Shown in pieces: positions 762 through 62,439 of a DNA stretch of 64,000 nt; position 1 is the first letter of the stretch; each line of letters opens with the position of its first letter. This DNA is from Candidatus Brocadia sp. WS118 (lineage in GTDB: Bacteria; Planctomycetota; Brocadiia; Brocadiales; Brocadiaceae): the NCBI GenBank assembly GCA_007618135.1, contig PHFX01000156.1, positions 1 through 64,000 of the forward strand, written 5' to 3'. The position numbers and the translations under genes were made by a program. The notes under the pieces are model-generated. The model ran no database searches and was not told where the DNA came from. It was given only the letters and a program-made list of their open reading frames with translations.

Positions 762-858
762 GCCTAACAACCCACTGGAGCGGACGGCCCACAGCGTAGG
801 CTCGGTGCATAGGCGTGGCTCTGTACCCGTGGGCCGTCGCTCACTGGGAGCGTTAGCG
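762..858 (+). other. attC-like recombination site after the SnoaL-like gene
   Basis: The left arm GCCTAAC (762-768) runs into a long arm ending GACGGCCCAC. The right arm, read as its complement, is CGCTAAC then GCTCCCAGTGAGCG then ACGGCCCAC, and ends with GTTAGCG at 852-858. The two arms pair over about 28 positions with one unpaired G, as attC bottom strands do. It fills most of the gap 645-919; the remaining bases 645-761 show nothing I recognise. Confidence 0.75.
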
Positions 859-3085: not shown

Positions 3086-3298
3086 GTGAAAAGTAAATAC
3101 GAGATAATAATTTATTGGAGTGCAGAGGATGAGGCATATATTGCAGAAGTGCCTGAATTACCCGGCTGTATGGCTGATGGAACGACATACCATGAAGCCC
3201 TTTCAAATGTTGAAGTAATTATCCAGGAATGGATTGAGACTGCAAAAGAATTAAAGCGTCCAATTCCACAACCAAAAGGTAAGCTGATGTATGCCTAA
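3086..3298 (+). CDS. hicB: HicB-type antitoxin
   Basis: A 70-residue HicB protein with the typical partial RNase H fold pattern: YWSAEDEAYIAEVPELPGC, then GTTYHEALSNVEVIIQEWI and the proline-rich end PIPQPKGK. It starts at GTG 3086 with GGAGG in the 3' end of hicA. There is no added C-terminal DNA-binding domain, so it is the short form. It would bind and neutralise HicA. Its TAA stop (3296-3298) is inside the R'' arm of the following attC. Confidence 0.88.
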   Translation: MKSKYEIIIYWSAEDEAYIAEVPELPGCMADGTTYHEALSNVEVIIQEWIETAKELKRPIPQPKGKLMYA

Positions 3299-3358
3299 CA
3301 TTTCACTCCACAGGATACGGCATAACTACCGCTGAACCTGTGAGCTCAGGCGTTAGCC
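3293..3358 (+). other. attC-like recombination site ending the hicAB cassette
   Basis: R'' is GCCTAAC (3293-3299) and R' is GTTAGCC (3352-3358). Nine bases inside each arm the sequences match again: left CACAGG, complement of right CACAGG, followed by CGG in both. The spacing between the paired blocks is 9 nt on both sides. The hicB stop codon lies in R''. Confidence 0.65.
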
Positions 3359-7519: not shown

Positions 7520-8707
7520 ATGATACAAGCGGTAATATTGGCTGCGGGAAAAAGTACAAGGACATGGCCACTCACATTAACAAAGCCGAAACCATTACTG
7601 AAGGTAATGAATAAAGAGATACTCAGGCATAATTTGGATGCGTTGCAGGGATTGGTTGGCGAGGTTATTATAATCGTAGGATTTAAAAAGGAAATGATCA
7701 TAAACGAGATAGGCCATAAATATGGGAAATTAAGCATCCAGTATGTAGAACAAGAATCACAGTTAGGCACAGGACATGCCCTGAAATATGTTGAAAATTT
7801 GATTCAAAACAAATTTCTCGTTATAGGCGGTGACGATATCTTTTCCCGGAAAGATATACAGGCATCTTTAAGGCATAAATACGCTGTTTTGGGATGTAAA
7901 GTTGAAAACCCCAGCAGATTCGGCGTCTTTGTTTTGGCAGGGAAAGAGGTGAGAAAGGTTGTTGAAAAGCCCCAAACATATGTGTCAGATATAGCGAATA
8001 CGGGACTCTATGTGTTTGATAAAGATGTGTTCAAATTTAAGCTCAAAAAAAGTCCACGGGGAGAATATGAAATCATTGACTATATCAATGAGCTTGTTGC
8101 AGACGAGAAAGTAGTATGTGAAACGGTAAAAGGACATTGGTTGTCGGTAGGGTACCCATGGGATTTAATTCAGGTAAATAATGTTTTGGTCTCCGAAATA
8201 AAGGATGAAATTAAGGGAACAATAGAGAAGAACGTTACTGTAAAAGGGAAGATACACGTAGGAAAAGGGACGGTAATTTTGTCGGGCACGTATATAGACA
8301 GAAATGTTGTTATTGGCGAAAACTGCACCATTGGGCCGAACTGTTTTTTGAGAGGAAATACCTCGATTGGAAACAATTGTCATATCGGACAGGCGGTTGA
8401 GATAAAAAATAGTATCATTATGGATAAAGCAAGAGTCCCTCATCTTTCTTATGTTGGGGATAGCGTTGTTGGAGAAAACAGTAATCTGGGCGCTGGAACG
8501 ATAACGGCCAATTTAAGACATGACAATGAAAATGTAAAATCCGAAGTAAAAGGCGAATTGATTGATACCGGCAGAAGGAAGTTCGGGGCTATAATCGCCG
8601 ACGATGTTCATACAGGAATAAATACCACCATCTATCCTGGAAGAAAGATTTGGCCAGGAATAGGCACAGGGCCGGGCGAGATCGTTGATAAAGACAAGAA
8701 GGCTTAA
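7520..8707 (+). CDS. GlmU-like bifunctional sugar-1-phosphate nucleotidylyltransferase/acetyltransferase
   Basis: A 395-residue two-domain protein. Residues 1-230 are a nucleotidyltransferase (AVILAAGKSTRTWPLT, KPKPLLKVMNKEI, QLGTGHALKYVE, VIGGDDIFS). Residues 240-395 form a left-handed parallel beta-helix of hexapeptide repeats ending in LGAGTITANLRHD. It resembles the archaeal-type GlmU variants that convert GlcN-1-P to UDP-GlcNAc, and directly follows glmM with a 3-nt gap, so a role in UDP-GlcNAc synthesis is likely. The exact sugar is inferred from context. Its C-terminal 149 codons are duplicated at 9952-10399. Confidence 0.85.
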   Translation: MIQAVILAAGKSTRTWPLTLTKPKPLLKVMNKEILRHNLDALQGLVGEVIIIVGFKKEMIINEIGHKYGKLSIQYVEQESQLGTGHALKYVENLIQNKFLVIGGDDIFSRKDIQASLRHKYAVLGCKVENPSRFGVFVLAGKEVRKVVEKPQTYVSDIANTGLYVFDKDVFKFKLKKSPRGEYEIIDYINELVADEKVVCETVKGHWLSVGYPWDLIQVNNVLVSEIKDEIKGTIEKNVTVKGKIHVGKGTVILSGTYIDRNVVIGENCTIGPNCFLRGNTSIGNNCHIGQAVEIKNSIIMDKARVPHLSYVGDSVVGENSNLGAGTITANLRHDNENVKSEVKGELIDTGRRKFGAIIADDVHTGINTTIYPGRKIWPGIGTGPGEIVDKDKKA

Positions 8708-9685: not shown

Positions 9686-9951
9686 CAAGTCGCCCCACTT
9701 TAACGCTTACATGTCATGCATCTTGCAAAGAACAATAAATACGCACACCAGGAGGGAAAGTAAGCGTCTGTGTGAACGATGGCGAAATCAACAATCTAAA
9801 ACGTTGGGGTCGAGTTACAAACCCAAACCCGCAAGAGAGAAGTCTCTTGTTACCGGCTTTTGCGGGAGATAAGCCACTGCAAGAGGAGATGAAATTTATA
9901 AACGATGAGAACTAATCAAGGTTTGACCCCGTTCTTGCCCGTTCTTGCCGC

Positions 9952-10399
9952 AGGAAAAGGGACGGCAATTTTATCGGGAACGTATATAGACGGGAATGTT
10001 GTTATCGGCGAAAACTGCACCATCGGGCCGAACTGTTTTTTACGAGGCAATACCTCGATCGGAAACAATTGTCATATCGGACAGGCGGTCGAGATAAAAA
10101 ATAGCATCATTATGGATAAGGCGAAAGTCCCGCATCTTTCTTATGTGGGTGACAGCGTTGTTGGAGAAAACAGCAATCTGGGCGCAGGAACGATAACGGC
10201 CAATTTAAGACACGACAATGAAAATGTAAAATCTGAAGTGAAAGGTGAACTCATTGACACCGGTAGGAGGAAGTTTGGGGCTATAATCGCCGACGATGTT
10301 CACACAGGAATAAACACAACCATCTATCCCGGGAGAAAGCTTTGGCCAGGAGTAGGCACAGGGCCTGGTGAGATTATTGATAAAGATAAGAAGGCTTAA
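9952..10399 (+). pseudogene. Partial duplicate of the GlmU-like gene (beta-helix half only)
   Basis: From the junction at 9952 the frame encodes the same 149 C-terminal residues as 8260-8707, with few substitutions (for example R to G, R to K, I to V). The nucleotidyltransferase half is absent. The frame stays open to an ATG at 9905 inside unrelated sequence, but there is no evident ribosome binding site. Most base differences are third-position, so the copy is either recent or was conserved for a time. Most likely a non-functional fragment; a free acyltransferase-like beta-helix cannot be excluded. Confidence 0.75.
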
Positions 10400-31898: not shown

Positions 31899-32092
31899 GT
31901 TTGACAATAATACTATGAATTTGTTTGAATGGTATGGGTATAAATATTGGTCGTACGTACATCGCTATGGTCAGGAAGTGCCTGGATGGTTCAGATGTCA
32001 TAATTGGTTTGCGGGAGATGGGTGGCAAAGTTCTGAAGTAAGGTATGGGAAGATACCCGCTTCCTGAAAAGCTTCCTTTTGCAATTAGATTG

Positions 32093-42214: not shown

Positions 42215-43075
42215 TCACCTTCCAAATGATCTTTTTGTGTAGAAATAACCGAACCCTGCCACCAGAAGCAAGATGATTACGGATGTGGCAGTGCCTTGTC
42301 CAAAGTCTCCCTGATAAAAAAAGAGTTTATAGGCATATACCGACACGTTTTCTGTTGAGCCTCCCGGTCCTCCGCCGGTGAGGACATACACGAGGTCAAA
42401 TATCCTCATGGCATTAATCGCCCTGAAAAGGATGGCGACACCCAATACCGGCAACAGCAATGGCAGGAAGATGAAACGAAGCCGTTGCCAACTGCTTGCT
42501 CCATCAATAACAGATGCCTTGTACATTTCCTGAGGAATGGCAGAGAGGCCTGCCAAGACAATAATGGCTACAAACGGCGTTGTCTTCCACACATCCGCAA
42601 CAACAAGTGAAAAAAAGGCCAACCACGGCTTCTCAAGCCAGCTTATCTGATCTATTCCTATGCCCTGTAAGAGATAGTTTACGACACCCAGATTATAGTC
42701 AAAGATCCACTGCCACATCCTGGCGGTGACCACCGTTGGAATTGTCCATGGAACAAGGATAAGGATTCTCAAAAGGTTATTAACGGGCGATAGCCGGTTC
42801 ATCATGAGCCCCAGACATAAGCCCAGAATCGCTTCCAGGGATATCGAAACAAAGGTAAATGAAAGGGTAAGAAAAAGTGAGTACCAAAAACGGGAGTGCG
42901 CCAGAATTGCCTGATAAATATCAAGTCCTGCAAATCTTTCCTCCGTCAGGATGAGTTTCGCATTCTTGAACGATGGGATGAGGGTGTCTATAAATGGGAT
43001 AAAATTAAATGCCAGTACCAGCATTATACCGGGCAGTAAAAACAGATAGGACAGTTTAGTTTTTCGTAAAATCAC
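42215..43075 (-). CDS. Sugar ABC transporter permease (MalF/UgpA type)
   Basis: A 286-residue inner membrane permease with six predicted helices (the first in YLFLLPGIMLVLAFNFIPFI) and the EAA loop LSAIPQEMYKASVIDGASSW that docks to the ATPase. It is intact and begins at GTG 43075, overlapping the remains of the binding-protein gene. Its partner permease and ATPase exist in this window only as fragments (47497-48370), so it may no longer work unless partners are encoded elsewhere. Confidence 0.88.
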   Translation of the reverse strand: MILRKTKLSYLFLLPGIMLVLAFNFIPFIDTLIPSFKNAKLILTEERFAGLDIYQAILAHSRFWYSLFLTLSFTFVSISLEAILGLCLGLMMNRLSPVNNLLRILILVPWTIPTVVTARMWQWIFDYNLGVVNYLLQGIGIDQISWLEKPWLAFFSLVVADVWKTTPFVAIIVLAGLSAIPQEMYKASVIDGASSWQRLRFIFLPLLLPVLGVAILFRAINAMRIFDLVYVLTGGGPGGSTENVSVYAYKLFFYQGDFGQGTATSVIILLLVAGFGYFYTKRSFGR

Positions 43076-44333
43076 GTTTTATCCCTTCGAGTTTTACTTT
43101 CATGGTCATTAATGCCGCCTTGCTATTTGTCTGATTTGACAGTACCTTGTTAATGTGCTTCTGCAAAATATCGCTTATCCACTGGTAATAGGGAACGTTC
43201 GGTTGTATCTGAACATCGTGTAACGCCGATTCAGCGACGGGCAGGAAAGGCAATTTTTCACCTTACTGGTCTTTATACAATGCTGTTCTGGAGGGCATCC
43301 ATGACGCATGCATGGCCAATTCCTTTTGTGCTTCATGTGAAGTTAAAAAATGAATCAACTGCCATGCCTGTTCCTTGTTCCCTGAATACGCATTGATAGC
43401 GAGATGCCAGCCGCCATACACCGATGCCGGTTTTCCGTCAGAAAACCGGGGGAGCCGTGACACACCCACCTTACCCTTCATTGAGGGATCTTCCTGGCAT
43501 AATCCCCACACATAGGTCCAGTTTCTCAAAAACAGGCCTTTCCCCTGTTGAAAGAGATGCCGGGAAGACTCTTCCTCAAGTTCACTGCAAGTGTTTTGCG
43601 GAGATACACGGTATTTCCATATCAAATCGTGCATCAGATCAAGCGCGATGGTATTGTGCTCAGAATCGACGATGATATTTCCTGTACTGTCAATGATCCC
43701 GCCGTTTTTGCTGCCAATGAATTCGATAAAATTGCAGATCAGCCCTTCATATTGCTTCCCCTGCCAGAGATACCCGTAAACAGATTCAGACGCTGAGATT
43801 TGTGTGCAGAGCTCAATAAGGTCATTCCACGTGTCGGGCGGATGCATATTATACTTTTCCAACAGGTCTTTTCTGTAATATAAAAGGCCGACGTTGGCAT
43901 TCCAGGGTATGGCGTATAAGGTGCCCTGAAAGACGTTTGTTTCTTCCATCACCGGAAGAAAGGACGCCCGGTCATTTTTATCCATACGATTTTCAAGAGA
44001 TTCCAGCCATCCGGCAGATGCAAATTCAGCTATCCAGATGGTATCTATCCTCATGACATCAAAATCCTTGTTTTTCGCTCCCAGGGTGGTAAGGTAGTAA
44101 TGATGTTGTTGGTCTGTGGAAGCCGGCAGGACGTTTAAGGAAACTTTTATTGCTGGATTTTCAGCTTCAAATTGATCTACAAGGATTTTTATAAACCGGA
44201 TTTCTTCTGTACCGGCGCCGATGCTGAACACTAACTCGTCCGTTTTTTTCGTCCTTAAGAAAGTAGAGGCAATCCATACCCCAACCAGGGCATAAACAAA
44301 TACGATAATTGTTTTTTTGGGATTAAATTCCAC
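43056..44333 (-). pseudogene. Sugar ABC transporter solute-binding protein gene with a nonsense codon
   Basis: The first 356 codons encode an extracellular solute-binding protein (MalE/UgpB-like): an N-terminal signal anchor (TIIVFVYALVGVWIASTFLR), then EIRFIKILVDQFEAENPAIK and YAIPWNANVGLLYYRKDLLEKY. A TAA at 43263-43265 ends it after MPSRTALYKDQ. The same frame then continues for another 68 codons (KLPFLPVAESALHDVQIQPN...) to 43056, overlapping the permease start as normal. A single base change in one codon explains this. The product would lack its C-terminal helices. Confidence 0.8.
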
Positions 44334-44435
44334 GGTGGACTTTCATAGGAAACCATAATAGTAAAAGGCGGGTGACGTAGTAAGTCTATGTTAAGTATTC
44401 CTCTAATAGGTCAGACTGCTATGCCTCTCTTCGCC

Positions 44436-44492
44436 GCACAACGATTAAGTTCAGTCGCCGCTCTTGCAGTCGGCTGCAACGACTTGTTATGC
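44436..44492 (-). other. attC-like recombination site after the adenylate cyclase gene
   Basis: Read on the minus strand, R'' is GCATAAC (44492-44486) and the far end is GTTGTGC (44442-44436). Inner arms AAGTCGTTGCAG...CCGAC and complement AAGTTCAG...TCGCC pair with small bulges. The cyclase stop TAA lies inside R''. Weaker than the others but the same layout. Confidence 0.55.
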
Positions 44493-45794
44493 TGTATGCG
44501 AATTGCGTCTTTTGGCTATTACATGCCATACTTGCATCTCACCCTTTCCTTTAATTTTGATCCTGCTACCTGGTTCGCAGATGAACTCATTATTAATGAG
44601 TTCATAAGTCGAGTTGGTAATCTGGATTTTACCAGATTCCCCATGAGACTCCATACGACTAGCCGTATTGACCGTATCTCCCCATAGATCATAAATAAAT
44701 TTTTTAAGTCCAATCACACCAGCGACTACAGGTCCCGAAGCGATTCCAATACGAAAAGCTAATTGCGTACCGTCTTGCGATGGATGATTTGCGGCATATT
44801 CGCGTATATCCAGGGCCAAATTTACTATAGCTTGGGCGTGATGGAAATGACTCGTAGGTATACCAGCAGCTACCATGTAACAATCTCCAATGGTCTTAAT
44901 CTTCTCCAATCCGTATTTTTCAACCAGGGTATCCAGGTGAGAAAAGATTTTATTGAGTAATTGAACTAGCGCTTTGGGTTCCAACTTTTCTGATAAGGGC
45001 GTAAAGTTCACTATATCAGCAAATAATACGCTCACATTTTCAAAATGATCGGCGATGATTTGCGGGTTATTCTTGAGTCTCCCGGCAATTTCTTCAGGTA
45101 AGATATTGAGCAACAATTGTTCAGCCTGGCGTTGTTCAAATTCAATAATGAGCCGTTGTAAGAAATCTCTGCGGGAGTAAACCTCCATAAAGTAACAGGC
45201 TACCATTCCAATAATCACCGTCGACAGAAAGAAAAAATTATTGTTGATAAACATATGGATACCTTCTGTGGATGTCCAGAACTGTTGTAACACAATAGCG
45301 ACAATCTCATATCCACAAATAATGATCAAACTGTAAGCGGTTGCATATTTAAAGCGGAGTCGTACAAAGGTAAATCCATACAGCATTACTAACATCAATC
45401 CAGCATAGTACGATGTGTACCCAGGTTCTTGCTTATGAGAGATGGCAATCATAGCAATAATACCAAGCCCGCCTAAGACAATGGGTATAGCATGAAAAAT
45501 TTGCATCAATCTTTCGAAAAATGAGAAAAAGGAGGCCAGTAGCGCCATACCTATCGCCGGGCAAACAATGACATATCGGATGAACCAAATGTCATTCTTA
45601 GAAATAGGCATAGCCCAGATATCTAATAATCCGAATCCCCCATATAGAATCATCGCTACAAAAAGGGCGACCCTGGAGAGGACTAAGTAATGACGCGAAT
45701 AATCAGTCAAAAATTGCGCTTCGAATTCTCCGGGGAAACGGAGTCGATAGGCATAACGAATGGAATCTACTGTGATGAAATTTTGTTCTATCAT
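44487..45794 (-). CDS. Class III adenylate cyclase with N-terminal membrane domain
   Basis: A 435-residue cyclase. Residues about 30-200 form six membrane helices. A short linker (EQRQAEQLLLNILPEEIAGR) leads to the catalytic domain: VSVLFADIVNFTPLSEKL (metal Asp), EKIKTIGDCYMVAAGIP (second metal Asp, purine-specifying Lys), RIGIASGPVVAGVIG and YDLWGDTVNTASRMES (purine-specifying Asp, transition-state Asn and Arg). Lys and Asp at the specificity positions indicate ATP, giving cAMP. It begins 15 nt after the previous gene without a clear ribosome binding site, so it is probably coupled to it. The stop codon is in an attC arm. Confidence 0.9.
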   Translation of the reverse strand: MIEQNFITVDSIRYAYRLRFPGEFEAQFLTDYSRHYLVLSRVALFVAMILYGGFGLLDIWAMPISKNDIWFIRYVIVCPAIGMALLASFFSFFERLMQIFHAIPIVLGGLGIIAMIAISHKQEPGYTSYYAGLMLVMLYGFTFVRLRFKYATAYSLIIICGYEIVAIVLQQFWTSTEGIHMFINNNFFFLSTVIIGMVACYFMEVYSRRDFLQRLIIEFEQRQAEQLLLNILPEEIAGRLKNNPQIIADHFENVSVLFADIVNFTPLSEKLEPKALVQLLNKIFSHLDTLVEKYGLEKIKTIGDCYMVAAGIPTSHFHHAQAIVNLALDIREYAANHPSQDGTQLAFRIGIASGPVVAGVIGLKKFIYDLWGDTVNTASRMESHGESGKIQITNSTYELINNEFICEPGSRIKIKGKGEMQVWHVIAKRRNSHTA

Positions 45795-45809
45795 TTATAA
45801 ATCTGTTGT

Positions 45810-46142
45810 CTATTCTTTTCCTGTTTTTAATATTTTCTCAAAAGTCTTTTCGGCCTCTCTTATGTCTTTTTTGCTTGGTATTTCTTCGTCTTCAATTATG
45901 CTTCTTATCCACAGGTGAATAAAAAGGTCTTTTCCATGGTGAATTAATTCTTCTTTAACTTTAGTACTGTTGTCAATACTGATGCCGTTTGCTATCAAAT
46001 ATCGATAAGCCGTATCGGCAATTCTTTTGATCGCCGGGATATGCTCCAAATTATCGACAGACTCTTCTAAGAAATATTTATGTTGGCTCTCTACCAGAAC
46101 CATTCCATATGCAGTCACTATTTTAATTATGTCTTGATTCAT
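45810..46142 (-). CDS. Unknown protein preceding the adenylate cyclase
   Basis: A 110-residue, helix-rich, charged cytoplasmic protein (ESVDNLEHIPAIKRIADTAY, then GKDLFIHLWIRSIIEDEEIP). No family recognised. Its ATG lies 14 nt from the preceding attC boundary and only 15 nt separate its stop from the cyclase start, with no attC between. The two therefore share one cassette and probably one transcript. A regulatory role toward the cyclase is possible but unsupported. Confidence 0.65.
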   Translation of the reverse strand: MNQDIIKIVTAYGMVLVESQHKYFLEESVDNLEHIPAIKRIADTAYRYLIANGISIDNSTKVKEELIHHGKDLFIHLWIRSIIEDEEIPSKKDIREAEKTFEKILKTGKE

Positions 46143-46153
46143 TTGTCTTTATA

Positions 46154-46229
46154 TAGATAACGCTCCGCTTAACCCGCTGGCAACGGAACGTAGCTGAGTA
46201 GCCGGCCAGGTCAAGTGGTTGTTAGATGC
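46154..46229 (-). other. attC-like recombination site after the mrr remnant
   Basis: On the minus strand R'' is GCATCTAAC (46229-46221). The arms ACTTGACC...TGGCCGGC and complement GCTTAACC...CGCTGGC pair, and the far end is GCGTTATCT. The complement of R'' (GTTAGATGC) matches the start of this cassette, GCTAGATGC at 46619-46611, with one mismatch. The mrr stop TAA is inside R''. Confidence 0.7.
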
Positions 46230-46592
46230 TCTCTTCAAAATAATCGCTATCAACCTTTTTGACTGGATACAATGAAACCGTGGATACACCTACATCATGC
46301 TCAATCATCAAACTGGTAAGTTGCTCACCGTCAATTAAAACGATTTTACTGCCGATCTGAGAGACATAACTCCGAGCAATCCAGCCTTTTTCATGTACGT
46401 TGATGCCCAACCGACTCGATTAGAAAATGTTGACTGAATACCGCTTGGGAGCATTTCCTTTAGTTCTTCATCGGTAAGGCTCAATTCCTTTGACAGAACT
46501 TCCACTGCCTCACTGGTTGATGTCTCCCCGCTCTTTCTTGCCGTAAATTGGAGAAGCGGCAGCATCAAACTCTGATAATCTGGAACGGCCAT
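46222..46592 (-). pseudogene. mrr: Mrr-type restriction endonuclease gene with internal deletion
   Basis: The 5' part from ATG 46592 encodes an Mrr N-terminal winged-helix domain: MAVPDYQSLMLPLLQFTARK, LTDEELKEMLPSGIQSTFSN and RVGWASTYMKKAGLL. Immediately after, in another frame, comes the Mrr C-terminal end: YVSQIGSKIVLIDGEQL, MIEHDVGVSTVSLYPVKKVD and SDYFEES. Intact Mrr proteins have about 300 residues; the PD-(D/E)xK nuclease core between these parts is missing, deleted near 46385. Mrr proteins cut methylated DNA, so this is a dead defence gene held in an attC cassette. Confidence 0.8.
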
Positions 46593-46610
46593 TTATTTAT
46601 CTCCTTTGTG

Positions 46611-46670
46611 CATCTAGCGTTTCCGCCCAGCCGCGCCGCTTTGCGACGACGGCTGAGTGGATTGTTGTAT
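46611..46670 (-). other. attC-like recombination site before the mrr cassette
   Basis: Minus-strand arms AATCCACTCAGCCGTCGTCGC and, as complement, GTTTCCGCCCAGCCGCGCCGC pair across a short AAA-containing loop. The boundary bases are ATACAAC (R'') and GCTAGATG (R', degenerate by one base from GTTAGATG). It lies 3 nt after the stop of the 160-residue gene. Confidence 0.7.
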
Positions 46671-46673
46671 TTC

Positions 46674-47156
46674 TTAATCCTTGTCATCATCAGGCAATTC
46701 GTCGCGCAAGCAATCCTTCAACTCTTTTAGAGCCTCACTCAATCCGGTGGCGGACGCCAAGCTTCCCAAGAAATTATTGATAATGTCTACCCATTTCTTA
46801 AACGGTTTTTTCCAGAGCTTACGTACTCCTTCTGCTAACCGCTCGCGTAACGTAGCGTTGGCTTTTGATACTTGGCGTTCTTTGATATTTAGTTGGGCGC
46901 CATAAAATCCAGCACGCTGAAAGTTCTGTCGTGGCGTTTGGAAAATCAATGTCTCCGGATGTTTCTCGCCGGATGCAGCTGTATTCTGTAGGAAATCATT
47001 AAGATATTCATTGATTGCTGCTCGCACTTCCGATGATCTATCCCCATAAATGTTATCTGCGTTTTTTTCAATCATTTCGAATGTCGCAATCGTATCCATG
47101 AACATCTGCATCACACGCCTTTGGACATCCCTAAGATCGTTGTCTGATAGCGGCAT
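46674..47156 (-). CDS. Unknown helical protein in a cassette
   Basis: A 160-residue protein, mostly helical, with RRVMQMFMDTIATFEMIEKN at the start, a basic middle (EGVRKLWKKPFKKWVDIINN) and an acidic tail (DELPDDDKD). No family recognised. I chose ATG 47156 because AGGAG lies 7 nt upstream; an in-frame start at 47183 is less likely. attC site 46611-46670 follows its stop. First visible gene of array 2. Confidence 0.6.
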   Translation of the reverse strand: MPLSDNDLRDVQRRVMQMFMDTIATFEMIEKNADNIYGDRSSEVRAAINEYLNDFLQNTAASGEKHPETLIFQTPRQNFQRAGFYGAQLNIKERQVSKANATLRERLAEGVRKLWKKPFKKWVDIINNFLGSLASATGLSEALKELKDCLRDELPDDDKD

Positions 47157-47352
47157 CTCTTTTCTCCTGTAAGAATACAGCAATAATTATACAGTCTGTA
47201 CAATCCTGCCAACAACCCGGCTTTGGACGGGCGAGCTCCTTTGTTCAAGCATGAGTGTATATCGTCGTTTTTATATCGTGTTAGCTAGGTAATTCCTGGA
47301 TGGTTAGAATATAATATCTCACTTTATTTTAGTCAATACAAAAAGGGTAGCA

Positions 47353-47496: not shown

Positions 47497-48059
47497 TCAA
47501 AATTCTATCCTTACACCGATTACAGTGTCAAACCAAAGAGTATCTTCGGGGGAAAACTGCAAACCTACCATATCCCCTGTTTTTGTTTCTTCTGCCGCAT
47601 TCCCTTTCACATACCACAGGATGTTTTTCGTAATTTCAACATGGCTTATTGATTCGCTTCCAAGGTATTCTCTATGCACGATTTTCCCGGTAATTACATG
47701 AGGAGAATGCGGGGGTACAAGGGTGAGTCTTTCAGGCCGTATGTCGAGAATGACGTCTTTTGTGCCGGGCAAGAGAGCAGGAAATTCAATCACAACTCCA
47801 CCAATATTGAATGAGCGTGGATTACCAATGCAACGTCTCTCTTTCCGGGCGGGACATGATTGACCATACGTTCATGAAAGAAGATGTATCCGGAGGTAGG
47901 CGCTTCCAAACCTGCAAGCATATTTAATGTCGTGGACTTTCCACTCCCGCTGGACCCAAGAATCACAAGAAATTTTCCATCGTGTATGTCCAGATTCAGA
48001 TTACGAAGCGCGGTGGTATTTCCGTATTGCTTTGTCAGGTCTTGTAATCGTATCTTCAT
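47497..48059 (-). pseudogene. Sugar ABC transporter ATPase gene (MsmX/UgpC type) with central deletion
   Basis: From ATG 48059 the frame encodes the N-terminal part: IRLQDLTKQYGNTTALRNLN, Walker A FLVILGSSGSGKSTTLNMLA and NHVPPGKRDVALV. It then stops after SILVEL. A second frame resumes with NIGGVVIEFPALLPGTKDVI and the C-terminal TOBE domain (DIRPERLTL...) to 47497. The Q-loop, LSGGQ signature and Walker B region, about 150 residues, are missing; the junction is near 47832. Not functional as an ATPase. Confidence 0.85.
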
Positions 48060-48370
48060 TCTTTCGCCGCGCCTGATGTTAATCCTTGTACAACGTATTT
48101 CTGGAAAAACAGTAAAATAATAAGGAGGGGAACCGTGACCACAACAGAGGCGGCGGCAATATAGACCCAGGGAATCTCATAGGTACCCTGAAACAGGGCA
48201 ATCCCCACAGACGCCATCCTTGTTGATTCATCAGGAGCAAAAGTAAGGGCAAAAAGAAATTCATTCCAGCAAAAGATAAAGACGAGAATTGCAGCAGAGA
48301 TGATACCGGGGGCAGCTAAAGGGGTGATAATATAACGAAAGGTTTGAAAATGCGTAAAAGACGAGTTTTC
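48056..48370 (-). pseudogene. Sugar ABC transporter permease fragment (MalG type)
   Basis: An open frame without its 5' half encodes the last 90 or so residues of a MalG-type permease: TFRYIITPLAAPGIISAAIL, FIFCWNEFLFALTF, then VYIAAASVVVTVPLLIILLF and FQKYVVQGLTSGAAKE. It ends by overlapping the ATPase ATG (ATGA), as in intact operons. The first three or four helices are gone. About 150 nt with no recognisable gene lie between it and the TPR gene. Confidence 0.8.
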
Positions 48371-62342: not shown

Positions 62343-62439
62343 TGGCGGGAGCGTGTGGGAATCGAACCCACCTATCCCGCTAAAAGCGGGACAGACCGGA
62401 TTTGAAGTCCGTCGCCGACACCAGCCGACATGCACTCCC
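62343..62439 (-). tRNA. selC: tRNA-Sec (anticodon UCA)
   Basis: A 97-nt tRNA with encoded GCCA 3' end. On the minus strand the acceptor begins GGGAGTGC. The anticodon arm is CGGACTTCAAATCCG, giving anticodon TCA (UCA). A long variable arm (GTCCCGCTTTTAGCGGGAT) and a T arm GTGGGTTCGATTCCCAC follow. The length, long extra arm and UCA anticodon identify selenocysteine tRNA, which reads UGA with SelA, SelB and SelD. None of those genes is in the window. Confidence 0.95.

Follow-up and report, generated by a model that had tools for sequence, protein, structure and literature searches.

The array of gene cassettes on the minus strand of the window (the whole 64-kb stretch of Candidatus Brocadia sp. 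WS118 DNA analyzed here) is very probably what remains of a resident chromosomal integron that has lost its integrase; in this type of integron, the integrase gene (intI) and the cassettes point the same way. The integron platform is of a known kind and its history is unusually legible, while an adenylate cyclase as cassette cargo is uncommon. The array lies on one (G000:C69) of the 299 contigs of a 5.04-Mb assembly that is 96% complete. We read the minus strand of positions 44436-46670 and listed the open reading frames there; the array reaches beyond this interval, since the gene of cassette 1 lies outside it, as do the intI stub and the attI-like site (up to about 47336). The three cassettes carry, in turn, a 160-aa gene, a core-deleted mrr gene, and a two-gene unit consisting of a 110-aa ORF and a class III adenylate cyclase. 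The features, from the intI side onward, are as follows.

47308..47336 (-), promoter-like sequence TTGACT-N17-TATATT, a 10/12 match with a putative promoter role
47205..47316 (-), decayed 3' stub of an integron integrase gene, identified by blastn with the intI 3' end and attI of G007
47177..47203 (-), attI-like palindromic site, TTGTACAGACTGTATAATTATTG/CTGT, a motif found in related genomes that follows the intact IntI in G007
46618..47180 (-), cassette 1, with a 160-aa gene at 46674-47156 (from its ATG); cassette start GCTGTATT versus R'' AATACAAC
46612-46670 (-), attC site A, degenerate, recognized by comparison with relative G002 only
46161..46617 (-), cassette 2, an mrr remnant with an N-terminal piece at 46335-46592 and a C-terminal piece within ORF 46222-46410
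46155-46227 (-), attC site B, 19.4 bits and E 0.015 with the covariance model, the mrr stop codon lying in R''
44442..46160 (-), cassette 3, two genes: a 110-aa orphan ORF (45810-46142) and an adenylate cyclase gene (44487-45794)
44487..45794 (-), membrane class III adenylate cyclase of 435 aa, 208 bits with Pfam PF00211 (Guanylate_cyc)
44436-44492 (-), attC site C, 34.0 bits and E 1.5e-6 with the covariance model, the cyclase stop codon lying in R''
44401..44441 (-), remnant after the last full attC, at whose end a degenerate R' (ATTAGAG) meets the chromosomal flank GAATACTTAA, from alignment with the flanks of G001, G002 (two copies), and G031

The initial annotation had proposed that three minus-strand attC-like sites separate a gene of unknown function, a deleted mrr, and a two-gene cassette, and this layout holds: attC arms (R''/R' and L''/L') lie between the genes, at two of the three sites according to an independent covariance model run on the minus strand (sites B and C) and at the third by comparison with G002. 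The model has 52 positions and was built from 11 attC sites, none of them among the three tested; they come from the window's other array, from the C36 integron, from the decayed integron at C213, and from relatives. On the 64-kb window, it recovers its three plus-strand training sites and then sites C and B, the next match having an E value of 0.89. Those training sites belong to a first array, with attC sites at window 762-858, 1649-1708, and 3293-3358 (+) and cassettes between them. No match to the model falls between 44493 and 46154, inside cassette 3. Site A was not found by the model in the window, where it falls below threshold because the GTT of its R' is changed to GCT; the orthologous site in G002 (L052:8501-8562) keeps R' GTTAGGG, its score being just 14.6 bits (E about 1). 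With a weakly scoring ortholog and a missed window copy, site A therefore rests on the comparison. The same GTT to GCT change is found at the start of cassette 1, which reads GCTGTATT in the window versus GTTGTATT in G002.

The genes sit against these sites as had been noted earlier, with TAA stop codons at 44487-44489 and 46222-46224 inside the R'' arms of two of them, and with the start of the mrr cassette, GCTAGATG, complementary to its R'', CATCTAAC, except at one base, the GTT to GCT position. Folding energy is not decisive, since only site A clearly beats its shuffles when the sites are folded as single-stranded DNA (z -3.05, versus -0.13 and -1.34 for the other two). A search of the window with Rfam at curated thresholds returned no attC family, the sole match being a selenocysteine tRNA gene (tRNA-Sec) at 62343-62439 (-). 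Because scanning for a simple attC pattern returned many false matches, the trained covariance model was used instead. Matches to this model at E 0.05 or better are present in all 11 same-genus genomes (4 to 13 each), and cassettes are therefore common in the group.

At the other end of cassette 1, a blastn comparison of the G007 intI 3' end and attI with the window aligns 143 bp at 67% identity (E 1e-6, window 47316-47187), and the array therefore starts at an attI whose intI has shrunk to a stub. Anchored as it is on attI and a decayed intI stub, this genuine cassette array is what is left of a resident integron, not merely a free cluster of cassettes. It is no longer a complete integron, as only the 3' stub is kept beside attI and the attC cluster has no intact intI nearby. 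In G007 (L174), an intact integron integrase (471 bits) is followed by the palindromic attI motif and then by attC, all in the same orientation, and the stub, attI, and cassettes of the window share this order and strand, that of a reverse-oriented integrase. The 27-base attI-like motif ends in G/TT (TTATACAGACTGTATAATCATTG/TT and variants) and has 15 matches in seven of the 10 related genomes searched, versus one for a reversed control; it also follows integrase 3' ends at five loci in three other genomes (L157, L163, L167, L168/L170, and L171). In the window, the attI crossover would fall between 47181 and 47180. The palindrome follows both intact and truncated intI 3' ends at several related-genome loci, and at G031 L171 an intI 3' stub with the attI motif is joined to a stretch that resembles the sequence preceding intI.

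The TTGACTAAAAnAAAGT stretch upstream of the window array resembles one that precedes the intact intI in G008, and the promoter-like sequence at 47308..47336 is possibly the old intI promoter; a scan found eight such sites compared with 8.4 expected in shuffles, so there is no excess. The host genome contains an intact intI elsewhere, at C36, in a canonical integron with two cassettes. At that locus (G000:C36:55745-58610, L012), intI has 459 codons and an N-terminal extension and is divergent from the two cassettes, the second of which is a two-gene toxin-antitoxin-like pair. At window 31916-32083 (-) there is a tyrosine recombinase fragment that is decayed and contains an in-frame stop.

The array lies within a sugar ABC operon, where it separates the ATPase gene from the gene for the substrate-binding protein, and whole cassettes are present or absent at attC junctions in this slot when G002, G001, and G031 are compared with the window. 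In G007 (L057), the ATPase and binding-protein genes are directly adjacent. In G002, the attC of cassette 1 runs directly into the leader of the binding-protein gene, G/TTAGGGGGATACTT, and this junction is the empty site with respect to cassettes 2 and 3. Beyond it in the G002 slot come a duplicated flank, an IS200-like transposase, and an internally deleted integron integrase, as well as genes for a Na/Ca exchanger (319 aa), RidA, and DUF3786 with attC sites between them. This integrase remnant is about 90% identical to G007 IntI over residues 1-129 and scores 213 bits as an integron integrase. The G001 slot contains DUF4160 and DUF2442 genes and a Shedu gene (395-aa protein); this Shedu (SduA) defence gene, at L053:10595-11782, ends in an attC site. 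The downstream junction, G/TTRGRGGAATACTTAA, is common with small changes to G001, G002 (two copies), and G031. In the window this junction is degenerate and comes after about 34 extra bases, and the difference from G002 is therefore not one clean event. That the G002 slot is itself rearranged, with its duplicated flank and transposase, counts against our preferred explanation, as do the weak score of site B and the failure of site A under the model.

The ABC operon around the array (window 47497-48264 (-) and 43056-44333 (-)) looks decayed relative to G002: the ATPase gene lacks about 483 bp, and the binding-protein gene stops prematurely after ALYKDQ. Elsewhere in the window, the C-terminal part of a sugar nucleotidyltransferase-like gene (7520-8707 (+)) is repeated at 9905-10399 (+) as a second, partial copy about 1.7 kb downstream.

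The gene of cassette 1 has an ortholog in G002 (93% identical), and its 160-aa product is absent from the plasmid collection and belongs to no family in Pfam, NCBIfam, PADLOC, or PHROGs, the NCBIfam match being marginal. In cassette 2, the mrr pieces align with a type IV restriction enzyme profile of 317 positions, one at 1-78 and the other at 268-315; as only the two ends of the profile are matched, the catalytic core has been deleted, and the combination of N-terminal and catalytic domains that defines the type IV enzyme Mrr is broken by the loss of profile positions 79-267. The C-terminal piece also matches annotated restriction endonucleases.

Class III adenylate cyclases carry a signature of two metal-binding Asp residues, an adenine-selecting Lys/Asp, and a transition-state Asn/Arg. 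Alignment to solved cyclases, by which the catalytic residues were assigned, reveals this full set in the 435-aa protein of cassette 3: D260 and D304 (metal), K300, D369, N376, and R380. The protein aligns over residues 32-429 with full-length Cya (7yzi), and its N-terminal half contains five to six hydrophobic segments. It is absent from the other same-genus genomes, in which the next-best match is 36% identical over part of the protein, and no near-full-length match was found in 392 genomes of the phylum, the longest covering residues 93-429 at 41% identity. The best full-length relatives, about 50% identical, come from Deltaproteobacteria, Nitrospiraceae, and cyanobacteria, and the attC model found nothing around seven of these full-length relatives; the plasmid collection covers the cyclase only in part. 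The exact cyclase cassette is seen in a single, many-contig assembly. With the gene absent from same-genus genomes and the same operon slot holding different cassettes or none, the cyclase region is neither syntenic nor vertically inherited across relatives, which agrees with the earlier reading of it as cassette cargo. That reading had also called the cargo unusual, on the view that most cassettes carry short single genes; a cyclase is indeed uncommon, and the argument from size is weaker than it was put, as relatives carry the 395-aa Shedu protein and the 319-aa exchanger in the same slot. Among six papers that mention integron, gene cassette, adenylate cyclase, and attC together, none appears from its title and the opening of its abstract to concern a cyclase cassette.

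The 110-aa protein encoded ahead of the cyclase is an orphan with no relative in the 392 genomes and no family in Pfam, NCBIfam, PADLOC, or PHROGs, and its structure model is poor (pLDDT 48), too low for a structure search. The host genome encodes two other cyclase-domain proteins and has five matches to cNMP-binding domains that could respond to cAMP. Most likely, the cassette 3 cyclase would make cAMP for the host's own cAMP-binding proteins.

Two other accounts of the array concern its origin. Cassettes might have been inserted by an integrase encoded elsewhere, such as that at C36, into a chance secondary site that was never a resident integron. An intact IntI does exist elsewhere in the genome, each of the 11 same-genus genomes has scattered attC matches, and off-target insertion is one published route to CALINs (PMC8618304). 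Cassette 1 is, however, directly preceded by the intI 3' stub and the attI-like motif, and G002 holds an integrase remnant at the same slot; the stub largely refutes this account, and we consider off-target insertion very improbable. It is barely credible that the hairpins are chance or unrelated repeats and that the genes are ordinary, vertically inherited intergenic insertions. The weakness of sites A and B under the model and the folding of sites B and C, no better than shuffles as DNA, would fit such a view; set against it are the E value of site C (1.5e-6), the stop codons inside R'' arms, the complementarity of a cassette start to its R'', and the turnover of slot contents between relatives, while attI and the intI stub already refute it.

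A further alternative concerns cassette 3, which might be a Pycsar-like anti-phage module in which a cyclic nucleotide is made on infection and the 110-aa protein is an effector or regulator. PADLOC PycC models do match the catalytic domain, the same slot in G001 carries the Shedu defence gene, the neighboring cassette is a restriction gene remnant, and defence genes are often found in cassette arrays. However, the best PycC score is 45 bits, far below the 208 bits of the general cyclase model, the protein resembles a membrane Cya-type adenylate cyclase along its whole length, and the 110-aa partner is an orphan that matches no effector family and has a structure model with a pLDDT of 48. A PycC-family cyclase beside a Pycsar effector gene is thus not what this cassette contains, and we regard a Pycsar-like role as highly improbable. 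There is a small but real chance that a broader proposal is right, namely that cAMP signalling is mobile cassette cargo, with the 110-aa protein and the cyclase forming a self-contained two-gene module for sensing or defence that is passed between phyla by integrons, and that intI-deleted attI platforms, consisting of a promoter, a 3' stub, and a palindromic attI, recur in the genus as a non-autonomous form on which a few intact integrases act in trans.

If the array is the remnant of a resident integron, as we prefer, most of intI would have been deleted, leaving a 3' stub and attI ahead of three cassettes. Two of these, cassettes 2 and 3, would have been gained here, or lost in relatives, by IntI-mediated recombination of folded attC with attI or attC. 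This past recombination was probably carried out by a local G007-type integrase, and the intact C36 integrase could act in trans, possibly now. Cassette 3 may be transcribed from the attI side or by read-through, and its membrane adenylate cyclase would add predicted cAMP synthesis to the host. A decay series can be read across the group, with an intact integron in one same-genus genome, a broken intI at the same slot in another, and a stub only in the window. Through these stages the integron would have decayed into an integrase-less cassette cluster. At one fixed slot within a metabolic operon, cassettes appear to have been exchanged, and one of them brought a complete second-messenger enzyme as its cargo.

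Integrons, integrase-less cassette clusters, and reverse-oriented integrases are all established (PMC8618304, PMC9668308), and a reverse orientation has been noted for the typical IntIs of Spirochaetota (PMC9668308). Like the reverse-integrase chromosomal integrons of Spirochaetota, the platform described here has intI and cassettes on one strand and attI directly after the intI stop (intact in G007), but the intI of the window is only a stub. It shares with CALINs an attC array that has no intact intI beside it, and loss of intI is one published route to CALINs (PMC8618304); it differs from them in that attI and the intI stub are still recognizable, so that this route can be read directly. 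The Pycsar system (PycC plus effector) and cassette 3 both place a class III cyclase catalytic fold beside a small gene on a mobile unit, whereas the window cyclase has a weak PycC score and no known effector. Finally, the cyclase resembles the membrane class III adenylate cyclases of the Cya/Rv1625c type (PDB 7yzi) in its alignment over residues 32-429, its membrane N-terminal half, and its retained catalytic residues, and differs in its setting, within an integron cassette behind a 110-aa orphan ORF.
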